In this document: positions 65-55,974 of the stretch, one piece after another | Position numbering within the stretch: the stretch's first letter is position 1 | How the letters are laid out: the number at the start of each line of letters is the position of its first letter | NCBI GenBank assembly: GCA_018436785.1 | Contig: JAHDKR010000007.1 | Coordinates: forward strand, 1-64,000 | Origin: Synergistaceae bacterium | Lineage (GTDB): Bacteria > Synergistota > Synergistia > Synergistales > Aminobacteriaceae | Reading direction: 5' to 3' | DNA: 64,000 nucleotides | Notes under the pieces: model-generated | What the model was told of the DNA's origin: nothing | What the model saw: the letters and a program-made list of their open reading frames with translations, nothing else | The model's database searches: none | Made by a program: the position numbers and the translations under genes

Positions 65-103
65 AAAACGCCCCGGGGCATATGCTCCGGGGCGTTTTTT
101 TGG
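65..103. terminator. Bidirectional intrinsic terminator between groL and lanM
   Basis: An inverted repeat AACGCCCCGGGG / CTCCGGGGCGTT with a 6-base loop is followed on the + strand by a run of seven T. On the minus strand the same stem is followed by TTTTATTA. It sits between two convergent genes, the groL end at 36 and the lanM stop at 122, so it can stop transcripts from both sides. Confidence 0.85.
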
Positions 104-121
104 AAGCCGAAAACGATCCGT

Positions 122-3100
122 TTACTGAAGCAGGCTGACGATCTCTTCCGGAGCGCAGCAGCGCAGAAAGGTATAGCCGATGCCCGCCGAACCGTGAAAA
201 AGAGCCGGATTAAACACAATGCCGCCTTCGCTGCCGGTGAAGCGGAAACGGCCTGTACGCTGTTTTTGCCGGAGAATACCGACTGCCCTGGTGCGAGCGT
301 GTTCTACAAGCTCGTTGCGGTCAAGGCTCCGTCCCGCCGTAAGTAAAAAATCGACCATCGCCGCATTACCGCAACAGAGAGTATCTCCCGGTGCGGATGT
401 GTGCGACAAAGTGAAATCAAGAGCCCTTTCGACATCCCGTTGGATCATGCCTTTCAGTTCTTCCGCCCAGGGGAGACAGGCAAGGCGGAGCAAACCTATC
501 CCCGGGGCCCCGCTGCACCATCCGCTCATGAAAGACGGCCGCCCGCCCTCATTTTCCGTGTTTTCCCGATAGCGAAGATCCGGCCAGTTACCGGCGGTGT
601 TGTCGAAAAGTTCGTTTTCGTAGGCAATGCCTTCTTTCGCCGCTTCCGTATAGACCGCGTCGCCCGTCAGACGGAAGAGGCGCAACAGTGCGTAGGCGAT
701 GCCCGCCGCACCGTGGGCCGCGCCGCTTAAAGGGGCGTAGCCGAGGCCGTTGTCCCAAGCGCGGTACCCCGACGGCGTCGGTACTCGCGCGGACAAGAGG
801 CGTCGTCCGCATTTGTCCGCCAAGACAATCATGCGCTCCGGGCGCCGGGACACGGGCACTTGCGCCAGGGCGAGGATCAACCCGGCGACTCCCCCGAAAA
901 CATCCAATTGACGGTCATCGTCGATCTGCTCGTCGTGAATACGGGAGCACAGCAGGTGGAGATCATCCCAAAGGCCCTCATCCTCCAAATACTGCGCCAT
1001 TACCGCAAGTCCGCGTACAAGACCGGCCACTCCGTTTCCCAGTCCGAGACTCAGACGGTGGACGGGAAAGGGAGTGCGGGCGTCCCGTAACGTTCGCCGC
1101 CATGATGCGACAACTTGCAGCGCGTGTTTTTTTATCTCTTCTCTCCGGGTAAGACGCGACAGCGCGGCGAAAAAGACCCCCAGGCCCAGGCTCCCGTCAT
1201 AAAAGGAGCAGTTGATCGGTCCAAGGAGAATTTTTCGGGAAGAGGGCTCCATTTGGAGGGTAATCCATGAATAATCCCCGGTATCGCCCTGAAGGCGCCA
1301 CTCCATAATAGAACGGTGAACGCTCTCCGCTTCCGAAAGGAGTTGAAGCGTCGCATTCTCTTCGACAGTCTGAGAATTGCAGGGGAAGAGGGCGACAGCG
1401 TTCTCTTCCGTCACGTCCAGCAAAGGCGCCGGATCGCTGTGCGCTGCCGGCGAGTGCCGCCGCATCGCCAAGGCCGTCTGAATGAAGCGTGTCTGCACTT
1501 GAAGATCCGCTTCGCTTAAACCGGAGATGATCCTTCGGCAGCGTTCCAGCGCGCTTTCTTGAAAAAAACAGGGATGAAGTACCCGCTCCGCATCCCGGAG
1601 GGCGCGGTCTTCGGCCTTGGCGAAAAAGATGGGGACGTCCCCCCGTCCCAGAGCATCGGCTTCGCTCGCGAAGCAGCTCCCAAGCGGGTGAAGCTGGTCT
1701 CCGGGTTCGTGGAGGAAATAGGCGGCCGCCATTCGTTCCAACTCCAGAGAATACCGTATCCCGCCGCGTAAAGAGCAGGGATGCCGCAGCCGCTCCGCGA
1801 GATCGCCGTACACTCGGGTAGGACGCAGCAACGGACGCAACACGAGTCCTTCGAAGAACGCAAGCGGAGATTCCGCTCCCAGTAATTCTTCCCGTCGCTG
1901 TAAAAAAAAGGCGTACGCCTGCGCAAATCCTCGACACAAGGAAGCCCGGTAATCGGCCGCTTCCAGAGAACGCCCTTCGAGGACGGGAAGATTTGTCCCC
2001 GTCGGAGCGAACCCCGTCAAACCGCTGATATCCTCCGCATTTCCGCGGCCGTCGGTAACCCAAACCGGCAGAAGACCGATATGAAGCACCGAGTCGACAA
2101 GCATACGTAGAGCCTCCCGGGCCGCGCCCGTCCCCTCGTCCTCCTGAACGAAAGGTTGAAAGCGGTGGACGAGGAGGGTTTCCAGATCCACCGGCACAGG
2201 GTACGAACCTTGGGCGATCATGTTCTCCATATGGAAGTCGTTGGCTCCCAATACGTAGAATATGCACAATAAAACTCCGGATCGATGATAAAAGAGTTCG
2301 GCGTCCTCCTTGTCCGACAGGGGGCGCGGAGTAAGATATTCGACCCAGCAGTAATCGCCTTTGTCCAGCGCCGCCGGAACCGGACAGCACGGTAACCCCG
2401 CCGACTCGACCCATGCGATCCAGCGACGCCAAGCCTGATCTATTCCTCCGCTTCGCGGTTTGTAGACCAGATGCTCTCCCGTCTTCCAGCGAAGAACTGC
2501 CACGGTCCGGCCTCCGTTGTGAGGGTCGGACGCATCCGTCTCTATCCCGCTCAGTGCGGCGATCGACGGGGAAATGCTGAAGACCTGCTCCAGCTCGTAG
2601 CAATCTTTTTTCAATCGATCCAGGAGTTCGACCGTATATGTCACCCAATCTCCCGTTGTCTCGGAAAGACGTCGGCCGAGCACCGGATAAGTCCGGAGCA
2701 GATCGAACCAGCCCCCCGTTCGCAGGTCGGCCGCCAGCCGCTTGGCTTCGGTTGTGGTAATCTCCTGCGCCGGCGGACGGCCGAGAATGATCTGCAACGG
2801 GTAGGCAACTGCAAGTCTGCGGTGGATTTCGGCGCGATAGGTTTTCTCGCCGATCCGCATCAATCGTTTCGCCAATCCGGCCAAGAGTTCGTCGTGCACG
2901 GAAGCGGGGAGACAGGTATCCTCCCTTTCTTTCCCGAGATGCTCCCGTAGGGCGCGCGCTGCAAACAGAAGAAAGGGCTTCAAGGCCGTGAAAAGAGGCT
3001 CGGAATCGGCAGGAATCGAAGCGCCCTCCTCTTCCGAAGACGACGGCTCGAGGATTTTCTGCAGCCGGACCGCCCATTCGGGGAGCGGTTCTTCGAATCC

Positions 3101-3415
3101 GGCGCCGTTCTCCGAAGAAAGAAGGCATTGAAGCGTTCGCTCTTCAATGCCTTCCGCCGCAAGACGAGTGAGAAAGGCGCTTTTGCCGCCGTTTCCTCCC
3201 GCATGCCGAATCCATCGTTCGAGCAGTTCACGGCGCTCGGGATTCCATGGCTCGGGCGTTGCGATTTCAGAGGCGACAGCGCTGCAATACGCCGATTTTT
3301 CGCGCAGGAAACACGCTCCCGCCGCTATCGTGCGGATCACATTTCCCGTTTCGTGTACGGTTGTCACTTGGTGAAGAAGCAGTAGCTGCCGCGGGTAAAA
3401 ATGCAGTACGGGCAC
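122..3415 (-). CDS. lanM: Class II lanthipeptide synthetase LanM (dehydratase + cyclase)
   Basis: About 1,080-1,097 residues, normal for LanM. LanM dehydrates Ser/Thr of a precursor peptide by phosphorylation and elimination, then adds Cys thiols to form lanthionine rings. The N-terminal half is a DUF4135 dehydratase: KTGEHLVYKPRS near residue 310, ANDFHMENMI near 390 and VDLETLL near 410. The C-terminal 400 residues are LanC-like: GWCSGAPGIG (Cys about 967), LCCGNAAM (Cys about 1014-1015) and LFHGSAGIGY near 1075. The tandem Cys makes it a CCG-type enzyme, like ProcM, rather than CHG-type. The listed start is GTG at 3415, inside the precursor gene. A GTG at 3367 overlaps the precursor's TGA stop (GTGA) and is an equally good start giving 1,081 residues. 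No transporter or protease gene adjoins. Confidence 0.93.
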   Translation of the reverse strand: MPVLHFYPRQLLLLHQVTTVHETGNVIRTIAAGACFLREKSAYCSAVASEIATPEPWNPERRELLERWIRHAGGNGGKSAFLTRLAAEGIEERTLQCLLSSENGAGFEEPLPEWAVRLQKILEPSSSEEEGASIPADSEPLFTALKPFLLFAARALREHLGKEREDTCLPASVHDELLAGLAKRLMRIGEKTYRAEIHRRLAVAYPLQIILGRPPAQEITTTEAKRLAADLRTGGWFDLLRTYPVLGRRLSETTGDWVTYTVELLDRLKKDCYELEQVFSISPSIAALSGIETDASDPHNGGRTVAVLRWKTGEHLVYKPRSGGIDQAWRRWIAWVESAGLPCCPVPAALDKGDYCWVEYLTPRPLSDKEDAELFYHRSGVLLCIFYVLGANDFHMENMIAQGSYPVPVDLETLLVHRFQPFVQEDEGTGAAREALRMLVDSVLHIGLLPVWVTDGRGNAEDISGLTGFAPTGTNLPVLEGRSLEAADYRASLCRGFAQAYAFFLQRREELLGAESPLAFFEGLVLRPLLRPTRVYGDLAERLRHPCSLRGGIRYSLELERMAAAYFLHEPGDQLHPLGSCFASEADALGRGDVPIFFAKAEDRALRDAERVLHPCFFQESALERCRRIISGLSEADLQVQTRFIQTALAMRRHSPAAHSDPAPLLDVTEENAVALFPCNSQTVEENATLQLLSEAESVHRSIMEWRLQGDTGDYSWITLQMEPSSRKILLGPINCSFYDGSLGLGVFFAALSRLTRREEIKKHALQVVASWRRTLRDARTPFPVHRLSLGLGNGVAGLVRGLAVMAQYLEDEGLWDDLHLLCSRIHDEQIDDDRQLDVFGGVAGLILALAQVPVSRRPERMIVLADKCGRRLLSARVPTPSGYRAWDNGLGYAPLSGAAHGAAGIAYALLRLFRLTGDAVYTEAAKEGIAYENELFDNTAGNWPDLRYRENTENEGGRPSFMSGWCSGAPGIGLLRLACLPWAEELKGMIQRDVERALDFTLSHTSAPGDTLCCGNAAMVDFLLTAGRSLDRNELVEHARTRAVGILRQKQRTGRFRFTGSEGGIVFNPALFHGSAGIGYTFLRCCAPEEIVSLLQ

Positions 3416-3779: not shown

Positions 3780-3809
3780 TTGCTGGAAGGCTGTTCCGTG
3801 TGCTACACT
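3780..3809 (+). promoter_or_regulatory. Candidate promoter of the sugar-uptake operon
   Basis: TTGCTG (3780-3785) and TACACT (3804-3809) are separated by 18 bases, a reasonable sigma70-type pair. It lies about 155 bases before the ABC transporter ATPase gene, in the divergent intergenic region. No operator was recognised in the leader. Confidence 0.45.
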
Positions 3810-3965
3810 ATGAAGGATGAAAATTTAGGGAGATGTATTTGCTCTTTCGACAGCGGCAGTTCGTCAAATGGGATGAATACGCGTTTCTCTACACAACATC
3901 CGGTATAGGAAAAGAACGCCTGCGCCGATCATGAATGCATCTGCGAGGCGAGCGGAGGTGGCGGC

Positions 3966-5483
3966 GTGTCGGAATACATAGTCGAGCTTGAGGGCGTCGG
4001 CAAATCCTTCGCCGGAATCAGGGCGCTGGACGACGTTTCGTTGAACCTGAAGAGCGGGGAGGTGCTCGCGCTTCTGGGCGAGAACGGCGCCGGAAAGTCG
4101 ACGCTGATGAAGATCCTCGGCGGAATCTATACCCGCGACACCGGGATCATCCGGGTCTTCGGGGAGGAGATCGACGAGATGACGCCGAAGCGGGCGAAAG
4201 AGCTGGGCATCGCCGTCATCCATCAGGAGCTGAACATGTGCACCCACCTCACCGTCGCGGAGAACATCTTCCTCGGCAGAGAGCTGCTCCGTTCGGGAAT
4301 GCTCGACGACAGGGAGATGAACATCCGCGCCGCCGAGGTGCTCTCCCGGCTGAACATCGACATCGCTCCCGATACAGTGGTGGGAACCCTTCCCATCTCG
4401 AAGCAGCAGATGGTGGAGATCGCCAAGGCGCTCTCCACGAACGCGCGGATCCTCGTCATGGACGAGCCCACCTCCGCGCTCACTTCCAAGGAAATCAACG
4501 ATCTGTTCCATATCATCCGTTCGCTGCGCGACCAGGGGTGCGGCATCATCTATATCTCGCACCGGCTTGAAGAGCTGCAGCATATCGTGGACCGCGTGAC
4601 CATCCTCCGCGACGGCAAGTACATCGCGACGACCAGGTTCTGCGATACCACCATGGCGGAGATCATCTCGAACATGGTGGGACGCGAAATCAAAGAGAAG
4701 TTCCCGAGGGTGGAGACACCGCTCGGGCGGACGATACTCCGGGTGAAGGGGCTGAACGCGGGGCGTCAGGTGCGGAACGTGAGCTTCGAGCTGCGCGAAG
4801 GAGAGATCGTCGGCGTCGCCGGACTCATGGGCGCAGGCAGGACCGAGATGACCCGCGCGCTCTTCGGAGCGGATCCGAAGGACGGCGGGGAGATTTTGCT
4901 CGACGAACGGCCTCTGCGAATTGAAAAGCCGATGGACGCGATCGAGGCCGGTATCGTCCTCGTGCCGGAGGACAGAAAAAAGGACGGGCTCTGCACCAAG
5001 CTGAGCATCCGCGAGAATGTCGCCCTTCCGAACCTCGATATCCTCAAGGGAGCGTTGTCAACGGTGAACAGCAGAGGCGAGCGGGAGATGGTGGAGCGGA
5101 CGGTGAAGAACCTCTCGATCAGGCTCTCGAACGCGGAGCAGAACGCCGACAGCCTCTCCGGCGGCAACCAGCAGAAGCTGGTGGTCGGCAAGTGGCTCGC
5201 CCGCGAGTTCCGCGTGGTCCTCTTCGACGAGCCGACCAGGGGGATCGACGTGGCGGCGAAGGCGGAGATATACCATCTTATGAACGACTTGAAAACAAGA
5301 GGGCTCGGCGTGCTCTTCATCTCCTCGGAGATGCCGGAGATCCTCGGTATCGCGGACAGGATTATCGTAATGTGCGACGGCCGCGTGACGGGGGAGTTCC
5401 CCGCCGGGACTGCGACGCAGGAGAAGATCCTCGAATGCGCCACGCGCTTCGAGGACAAGCTCGGCCTTGCGGCCGGGGATTGA
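3966..5483 (+). CDS. Sugar ABC transporter ATP-binding protein (RbsA/MglA family)
   Basis: A 505-residue double ATPase, the usual size of the RbsA/MglA/XylG family that powers import of monosaccharides through a permease dimer in the inner membrane. The first cassette has Walker A GENGAGKST (residues 38-46), ISKQQ in place of the usual signature near 145, and Walker B ILVMDEPTSAL near 165. The second cassette has the family's degenerate Walker A GLMGAGRTE near 283, LSGGNQQK near 397 and VVLFDEPTRGID near 420. It starts at GTG 3966 behind GGAGG. It is the first gene of an operon with permease, binding protein, kinase and isomerases. The exact sugar cannot be read from this subunit. Confidence 0.93.
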   Translation: MSEYIVELEGVGKSFAGIRALDDVSLNLKSGEVLALLGENGAGKSTLMKILGGIYTRDTGIIRVFGEEIDEMTPKRAKELGIAVIHQELNMCTHLTVAENIFLGRELLRSGMLDDREMNIRAAEVLSRLNIDIAPDTVVGTLPISKQQMVEIAKALSTNARILVMDEPTSALTSKEINDLFHIIRSLRDQGCGIIYISHRLEELQHIVDRVTILRDGKYIATTRFCDTTMAEIISNMVGREIKEKFPRVETPLGRTILRVKGLNAGRQVRNVSFELREGEIVGVAGLMGAGRTEMTRALFGADPKDGGEILLDERPLRIEKPMDAIEAGIVLVPEDRKKDGLCTKLSIRENVALPNLDILKGALSTVNSRGEREMVERTVKNLSIRLSNAEQNADSLSGGNQQKLVVGKWLAREFRVVLFDEPTRGIDVAAKAEIYHLMNDLKTRGLGVLFISSEMPEILGIADRIIVMCDGRVTGEFPAGTATQEKILECATRFEDKLGLAAGD

Positions 5484-55886: not shown

Positions 55887-55974
55887 GCCGGGGTGGCGGA
55901 ATTGGTAGACGCGCTAGATTCAGGTTCTAGTAGGCATAACGCCTGTCGGGGTTCGAGTCCCCGCTTCGGCACCA
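55887..55974 (+). tRNA. tRNA-Leu (anticodon CAG)
   Basis: An 88-base gene including encoded CCA. The acceptor stem GCCGGGG pairs with CTTCGGC; the D arm contains GGTAGAC; the anticodon stem CTAGA/TCTAG encloses the loop TTCAGGT, so the anticodon is CAG, reading CUG. A long variable arm (AGGCATAACGCCT) marks class II tRNA; the T arm is CGGGGTTCGAGTCCCCG. It has its own promoter and terminator. Confidence 0.97.

Follow-up and report, generated by a model that had tools for sequence, protein, structure and literature searches.

A three-cysteine LanM beside a Nif11-leader precursor in a Synergistaceae genome: a lanthipeptide cassette probably dedicated to one substrate

Class II lanthipeptide synthetases (LanMs) with a CCG motif in the cyclase domain have been described as highly promiscuous, with Nif11 leaders tied to CCG (PMC10027976), and the presence of the motif is commonly taken to signal promiscuity (for example PMC10027976, PMC10783134). 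The window analysed here, a 64,000-nucleotide stretch of Synergistaceae DNA (bases 1-64000 of contig C50 in a draft genome of 3.33 Mb, 228 contigs and 82.6% completeness), opens with such an enzyme next to one Nif11-leader precursor, LanA, and raises the question of whether this LanM serves a single peptide or many. The best explanation, which we consider fairly probable, is a two-gene class II lanthipeptide cassette, lanA-lanM, whose enzyme is dedicated to one substrate. The Nif11 leader would deliver LanA to LanM, the N-terminal domain of the enzyme would dehydrate core serines and threonines, and a C-terminal domain of LanC type would add cysteine thiols to the dehydrated residues, with zinc held by C951, C998 and C999. 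Leader removal and export would then take place in trans, through an NHLM transporter with a C39 peptidase, the only one of its kind found in the genome, and LanM would act on LanA alone.

The enzyme combines a DUF4135 dehydratase and a LanC-like domain within one protein, the arrangement that marks a class II LanM, and its score on TIGR03897 (lanti_2_LanM) is 692.1 bits where 304 would suffice; PF13575 (305.5 bits) and PF05147 (165.8 bits) match as well. An AlphaFold2 model built from an 18-sequence alignment (mean predicted local distance difference test score 83.6) finds full-length matches among solved structures in LicM2 (Z 38.1 over 880 residues, root-mean-square deviation 7.8) and CylM (Z 31.2 over 862 residues, deviation 10.6); given these large deviations, the mutual placement of the domains is a prediction of the model. 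Matches of the LanC part extend to cyclases of classes I, III and IV and to LanC-like proteins. In the dehydratase, the columns of D281, H283, K303, D377, H379, N382, D394 and R511 are invariant in the alignment of 18 LanMs, and D252, H254, D347, H349, N352, D364 and R506 of CylM are listed as mutated residues in a published primer table, the match between the two numberings being our own. The cyclase has the motifs GWCSGAPG and, further on, LCCGNAAM, and GWC and CCG are both present in the LanM of a congener, G041, as well. Because GWCSGAPG and LCCG align with the WCHG and CHG of ordinary LanMs, C951, C998 and C999 fall at zinc-ligand positions, and it is these three cysteines that would hold the metal, to judge from the alignment. 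An earlier note on this DNA had called the cyclase CCG-type on account of LCCGNAAM, a view that a third ligand other than cysteine would have contradicted; the motif, its alignment with CHG and the preceding GWCSGAPG all bear the note out, with C951 aligned as the third presumed ligand.

The same note had proposed a phylogeny of the LanC domains, in which a position outside the CCG clade would have spoken against it. Such trees were calculated without the two motif stretches. Six rows were left out before alignment (L040, L041, L042, L043 as same-contig duplicates, and L045, L046), and of the 99 aligned rows 68 entered the first tree, the CHG rows being reduced from 49 to 22 and four rows with no readable, a CRG or an FNG motif being taken out; a second tree of 57 rows followed from the removal of 11 long or outlying rows (2 CCG, 9 CHG). 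In the 68-row tree, one branch of 42 rows (support 95/84) takes in 34 of the 36 CCG rows and 8 of the 10 that have other motifs but excludes all 22 CHG rows, while in the 57-row tree a branch (100/97) splits off all 13 CHG rows together with CSG and GNG, all 34 CCG rows lying opposite. The window LanM stands among the CCG enzymes in both, as the note expected, within a subclade of 14 rows (99/99) in the larger tree and 13 rows (100/99) in the smaller that consists of CCG and CCA rows only, mostly from anaerobes; there it groups with a sequence from a Dethiobacter metagenome-assembled genome (98/86 and 95/83, respectively).

Membership of ProcM's own subclade was rejected by an approximately unbiased (AU) test on the 57-row tree (p 0.00258), the constraint uniting the window LanM with seven picocyanobacterial ProcM-like rows, a group chosen after the 68-row tree had been obtained. 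In the 68-row tree these ProcM-like rows form the sister group of the remaining 35 rows in the CCG branch, and in the 57-row tree they lie with Halorussus beside the CHG rows (93/84); the two trees disagree on the branching order of the CCG groups, including where the ProcM-like rows stand relative to CHG. Two long-branched CCG rows fall outside the CCG branch of the 68-row tree, Halorussus L090 and Marivita L110; L110 was dropped from the 57-row tree, where L090 lies outside the CHG branch. L090 (6461-9622) is a CCG LanM of an archaeon, of unsure placement, in a genome without a Nif11 match. Among cyanobacterial rows within the CCG branch of the 68-row tree, CWG, DCG or CGG replace CCG (L173, L180, L181, L182, L186 and L187), some of them also being without the first cysteine.

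LanA matches PF07862 (Nif11) at 30.0 bits, above the gathering score of 23.8, and reaches 29.0 bits on TIGR03798, under the curated cut-off of 32.3 (21.6 bits for the LanA of G041). The leader proposed by the note as Nif11-type can therefore be retained on PF07862, though not on TIGR03798. The predicted core, CPYCIFTRGSYCFFTK, carries the internal repeat YC[IF]FT[RK] (YCIFTR/YCFFTK), and shuffling the core 100000 times gave an equally good repeat in 106 cases, the six-residue length having been picked after inspection. Twice, the repeat sets a cysteine three residues ahead of a threonine. Since C1 and C4 precede every serine and threonine of the core, any ring that uses either of them must have the cysteine N-terminal to its partner. 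With the two repeat units preceded by C-P and separated by GS, the core is most likely to form two like four-residue methyllanthionines, predicted as C4-T7 and C12-T15, possibly with an additional C1-S10 lanthionine. This ring direction has been described in the ProcM clade and in three of NpuM's four rings (PMC13060382). Bridging in the ordinary direction only, C12 joining T7 or S10 while C1 and C4 stay free or form a disulfide, would follow what most class II LanMs do (PMC13060382), and would alter the ring pattern alone, leaving the other parts of the best explanation untouched; we hold it to be rather unlikely, as C1 and C4 would find no upstream partner, the repeat twice offers the opposite spacing, and the three-cysteine NpuM itself forms rings with the cysteine N-terminal (PMC13060382).

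Whether LanM has one substrate or many was approached by counting precursors. A TIGR03798 search found eight Nif11 precursors in the genome, seven of them besides LanA and on other contigs (C19, C34 and C36), and the idea that LanA is its sole Nif11 peptide was accordingly rejected; the single core claimed by the earlier note holds for the locus and fails for the genome, where one of the seven also has a cysteine core. Cysteine cores are thus found in 2/8 precursors, LanA and C19:9402-9815, the core of the latter containing five Cys and four Ser/Thr. The congener G041 gives 2/11 (ten TIGR03798 matches and its LanA, found by PF07862). A positive control, G464, taken as Prochlorococcus MIT9313, has cysteine cores in 29 of the 31 Nif11 precursors examined among at least 38 matches. 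Compared with six other Nif11 leaders of the genome, the LanA leader shows 28-36% identity (a seventh is broken by a contig end and was left aside), against a median of 80% (minimum 48%) over the last 75 residues of 28 ProcA-type open reading frames (ORFs), which a regular expression picked out in seven of the eight stretches fetched for G464. When LanA itself was searched against its genome, it was followed by three matches at E 0.13 or worse. The prochlorosin-type pattern of many like leaders with variable cysteine cores is hence absent from this draft genome.

A ProcM-like promiscuous synthetase, with unlinked Nif11 precursors of the genome among its substrates, at the least the Cys-rich one on C19, would agree with the published view that CCG marks LanMs of high promiscuity (PMC10027976), with the Nif11 precursors on the three other contigs and with the five Cys and four Ser/Thr of the C19 core, as well as with the 3 to 7 Cys-core precursors of other CCG/CCA Synergistaceae. 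It is nevertheless unlikely in our judgement, for six of the eight precursors have no core cysteine, the leaders are far less alike than those of the ProcA type, LanM lies outside the ProcM subclade, and the C19 precursor adjoins a radical SAM enzyme (PF04055, 74.6 bits) and the NHLM exporter, a set whose export, radical SAM and Cys-rich precursor genes have homologues standing together on contig C20 of G041. The C19 stretch (G000:C19, L011, 2441-11884) comprises the NHLM set (ABC1 with C39 peptidase, ABC2 and HlyD) and, along with the radical SAM enzyme, a number of Nif11 precursors.

One dedicated substrate is thus favoured, not proven, and several points weigh against it or against a working cassette. 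The second Cys-core precursor could be a substrate, its radical SAM neighbour notwithstanding; precursors may be missing from the count, the genome being in 228 contigs and incomplete; and a divergent one could escape TIGR03798, as the 21.6 bits of the G041 LanA illustrate. Cys-core Nif11 precursors number 3/3 in G096, 6/6 in G081 and 7/8 in G043, all Synergistaceae with CCG or CCA LanMs, so that relatives may be multi-substrate and the single-substrate trait not a general one. The LanA leader terminates in AAAG, not GG, and no exporter, protease or immunity gene was recognised beside lanAM when the ORF list was read by eye, no dedicated search having been made. The identity of the LanA core between the two congeners rests on G041, a metagenome-assembled genome with 8% contamination, and is a weak sign of selection, not significant by itself, because 16 residues would stay unchanged in about 1 in 9 cases at the leader's rate. 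What stands of the dedication claimed by the note is the one LanA-like precursor, the 2/8 cysteine cores, the unlike leaders and, weakly, the core shared with G041; the draft state of the genome and the second Cys-core precursor keep it from being more.

The comparison with the genus bears on whether the cassette is functional. G041 (99% complete) has the same order, groEL-lanM-lanA-ABC, and a LanM 87% identical to that of the window, differing at 135/1080 residues (dN/dS 0.30); its leader differs at 11/84 residues (dN/dS 0.23), and its core is identical, with one synonymous codon change. At the groEL/ABC site of G038, G039 and G040 (L253, L254 and L255), 3/5 genomes of the genus, neither lanA nor lanM was found in the fetched stretches, where groEL is followed by the ABC gene with no other recognised gene in between. 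The alignment of G038 with the window consists of 1-112 (77%), a weak block at 3780-3828 (74% of 50 bases, E 0.05) and an exact one at 3953-3981, from which the extra stretch of the window corresponds approximately to the two genes and the region upstream of them; the difference may reflect either gain or loss of lanAM at this site. As for export, a single C39 peptidase match was obtained in the genome, within the NHLM transporter of C19, where the set exceeds the cut-offs of TIGR03796 (994.8 bits), TIGR03797 (801.0) and TIGR03794 (314.1). This NHLM system is unlinked to lanAM and would be the clearest candidate for cleaving the peptide and exporting it in trans. That the cassette is decaying or inactive and its product not exported, which could be suspected from the lack of a recognised exporter alongside, the three genomes without the genes and a relative (G064) whose LanM lost its zinc cysteines, is very improbable in the face of the dN/dS values of LanM (0.30) and the leader (0.23) between two species, the unchanged core, the open frames, the intact catalytic columns and the C39 exporter in trans.

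The nearest parallel in the literature is NpuM/NpuA, which makes the nostolysamides of Nostoc punctiforme (reported in 2026) and joins a LanM with three zinc cysteines to a Nif11 leader and only one substrate (PMC13060382); this combination, which is the probable one for the window pair, is therefore already known. Three of the four NpuA rings have the cysteine N-terminal to its acceptor, a direction that is only predicted for the window pair, and NpuM/NpuA differs in being cyanobacterial, in having its own peptidase-containing transporter (PCAT; NpuT) and acyltransferase (NpuN), and in its four rings and longer core (PMC13060382), the window cassette consisting of just two genes and belonging to a Synergistaceae genome. 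ProcM/ProcA of the prochlorosins, from Prochlorococcus MIT9313 (taken as LanM L223 of G464), shares the CCG motif and Nif11 leaders and differs in its 29/31 Cys-core precursors with like leaders and unlike cores and in its separate subclade (AU p 0.0026). Outside the genus, the nearest relative found is the LanM of the Dethiobacter alkaliphilus metagenome-assembled genome (L077; 37% identity, CCG), which likewise has an adjacent Nif11 precursor (TIGR03798, 47.7 bits); there the precursor gene follows lanM on its downstream side and encodes a core that is longer and unlike that of LanA, and a second Cys-core Nif11 precursor occurs elsewhere in the genome (G186, cysteine cores in 2/2). A further comparison is offered by MalM of Microcystis aeruginosa, a cyanobacterial ProcM homologue that reportedly cannot act on the precursors of ProcM (PMC12328550).

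Two expectations of the earlier note need revision. The useful second example of such a cyclase with a dedicated substrate already exists in NpuM/NpuA, and several other CCG LanMs adjoin Nif11-like precursors by eye; single CCG LanMs in Halorussus have also been described (PMC10027976). Nor can the enzyme be called promiscuous-type from its motif, given its place outside the ProcM subclade (AU p 0.0026), the one substrate of NpuM and the reported failure of MalM on ProcM's precursors: promiscuity cannot be read from CCG alone. A general link between CCG and Nif11 is weakened as well, PF07862 at E <=0.001 having a match in 8/16 genomes with CCG or CCA LanMs and none in the other 8/16; the profile misses some precursors, since L092 and L111, among the eight without a match, show Nif11-like precursors by eye. 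Such precursors near CCG/CCA LanMs ranged from one (L079, L091, L095, L111) to five (L092) when plus-strand Cys-containing ORFs within 2.5 kb of LanMs were looked at in 15 loci. Among the papers listed by searches on the phylum and lanthipeptides, no report of a three-cysteine LanM from Synergistota was found, and the row for Synergistetes in a table of ribosomally synthesized and post-translationally modified peptides appears empty, with three genomes (PMC4289311); the window thus adds Synergistota to the carriers of three-cysteine LanMs.

Taken further, and only tentatively, the locus may belong to an anaerobe lineage of three-cysteine LanMs apart from ProcM, in which lanAM comes and goes at a single site, encodes one unvarying peptide bearing two similar methyllanthionine rings of the reversed CxFT kind, and relies on the unlinked NHLM exporter of the host. 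If this is true, three-cysteine chemistry would serve ring direction, not substrate diversity. A small, expressible one-core pair far from cyanobacteria offers a test of whether three-cysteine sites govern substrate range or only ring direction.

The features of the locus are collected in Table 1. The ORF at 122-3415 on the minus strand was confirmed (1097 aa) and is longer than the likely lanM gene; the GTG at 3367 is probably the true start, because it overlaps the lanA stop (TGA, 3366-3364) and the same overlap occurs in G041. With this start, residues 1-16 of the longer ORF fall within lanA.

Table 1. Features at the left end of the window, with the basis of each assignment.
Feature	Position	Strand	Basis
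lanM, class II lanthipeptide synthetase (LanM), 1081 aa from the probable GTG start at 3367	122..3367	(-)	TIGR03897, PF13575, PF05147
lanA, Nif11-leader precursor, 100 aa	3364..3666	(-)	PF07862 over cut-off
GTGA, overlap of lanM start and lanA stop	3364..3367	(-)	sequence; kept in G041
Predicted core CPYCIFTRGSYCFFTK (3 Cys, 2 Thr, 1 Ser)	3367..3414	(-)	translation
C998 and C999 codons (LCCG motif), two of three presumed zinc ligands	371..376	(-)	aligned with CHG of other LanMs
C951 codon (GWCSGAPG motif), third presumed zinc ligand	515..517	(-)	invariant column, 18-sequence alignment
Inverted repeat then T-run, terminator-like, between groEL and lanM	68..101		sequence
groEL 3' end, left neighbour at contig edge	1..36	(+)	reading MGGMGGMGDMY-stop; groEL likewise in G041, G038, G039, G040
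ABC transporter ATPase, two ATPase domains, right neighbour	3966..5483	(+)	PF00005, two stretches

The ABC ATPase is, in our reading, of sugar type and outside the lan unit. A terminator scan placed a site at 81-68 on the minus strand, to which it lends no statistical support, as the window has 4 terminator-like sites against 6.1 in shuffles; promoter-like sites in the window were not above shuffles either (0 against 1.1). At Rfam gathering scores, the window has only a tRNA, at 55887. The G+C content is 59% in lanM, 56% in lanA and 62% in the rest of the window.

Some other LanM loci seen during this work deserve a record. After CCA-type LanMs of goat and reindeer Synergistota metagenome-assembled genomes, a radical-SAM-like ORF lies beside a multi-Cys precursor (L042 6634-8067 and L091 4025-4400), the ORF of L091 having a CxxxCxxC-like stretch by eye. 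The locus L044 (8815-14119) of G064 has two tandem LanM-like proteins, the aligned one having lost its zinc cysteine motifs and the second showing no CC motif, so the pair is perhaps dehydratase-only. Finally, upstream of the CCG LanM of an Oscillospiraceae metagenome-assembled genome (L092, 197-2133), five tandem Nif11-like precursors with unlike cores were seen by eye, possibly a small prochlorosin-like set outside cyanobacteria.

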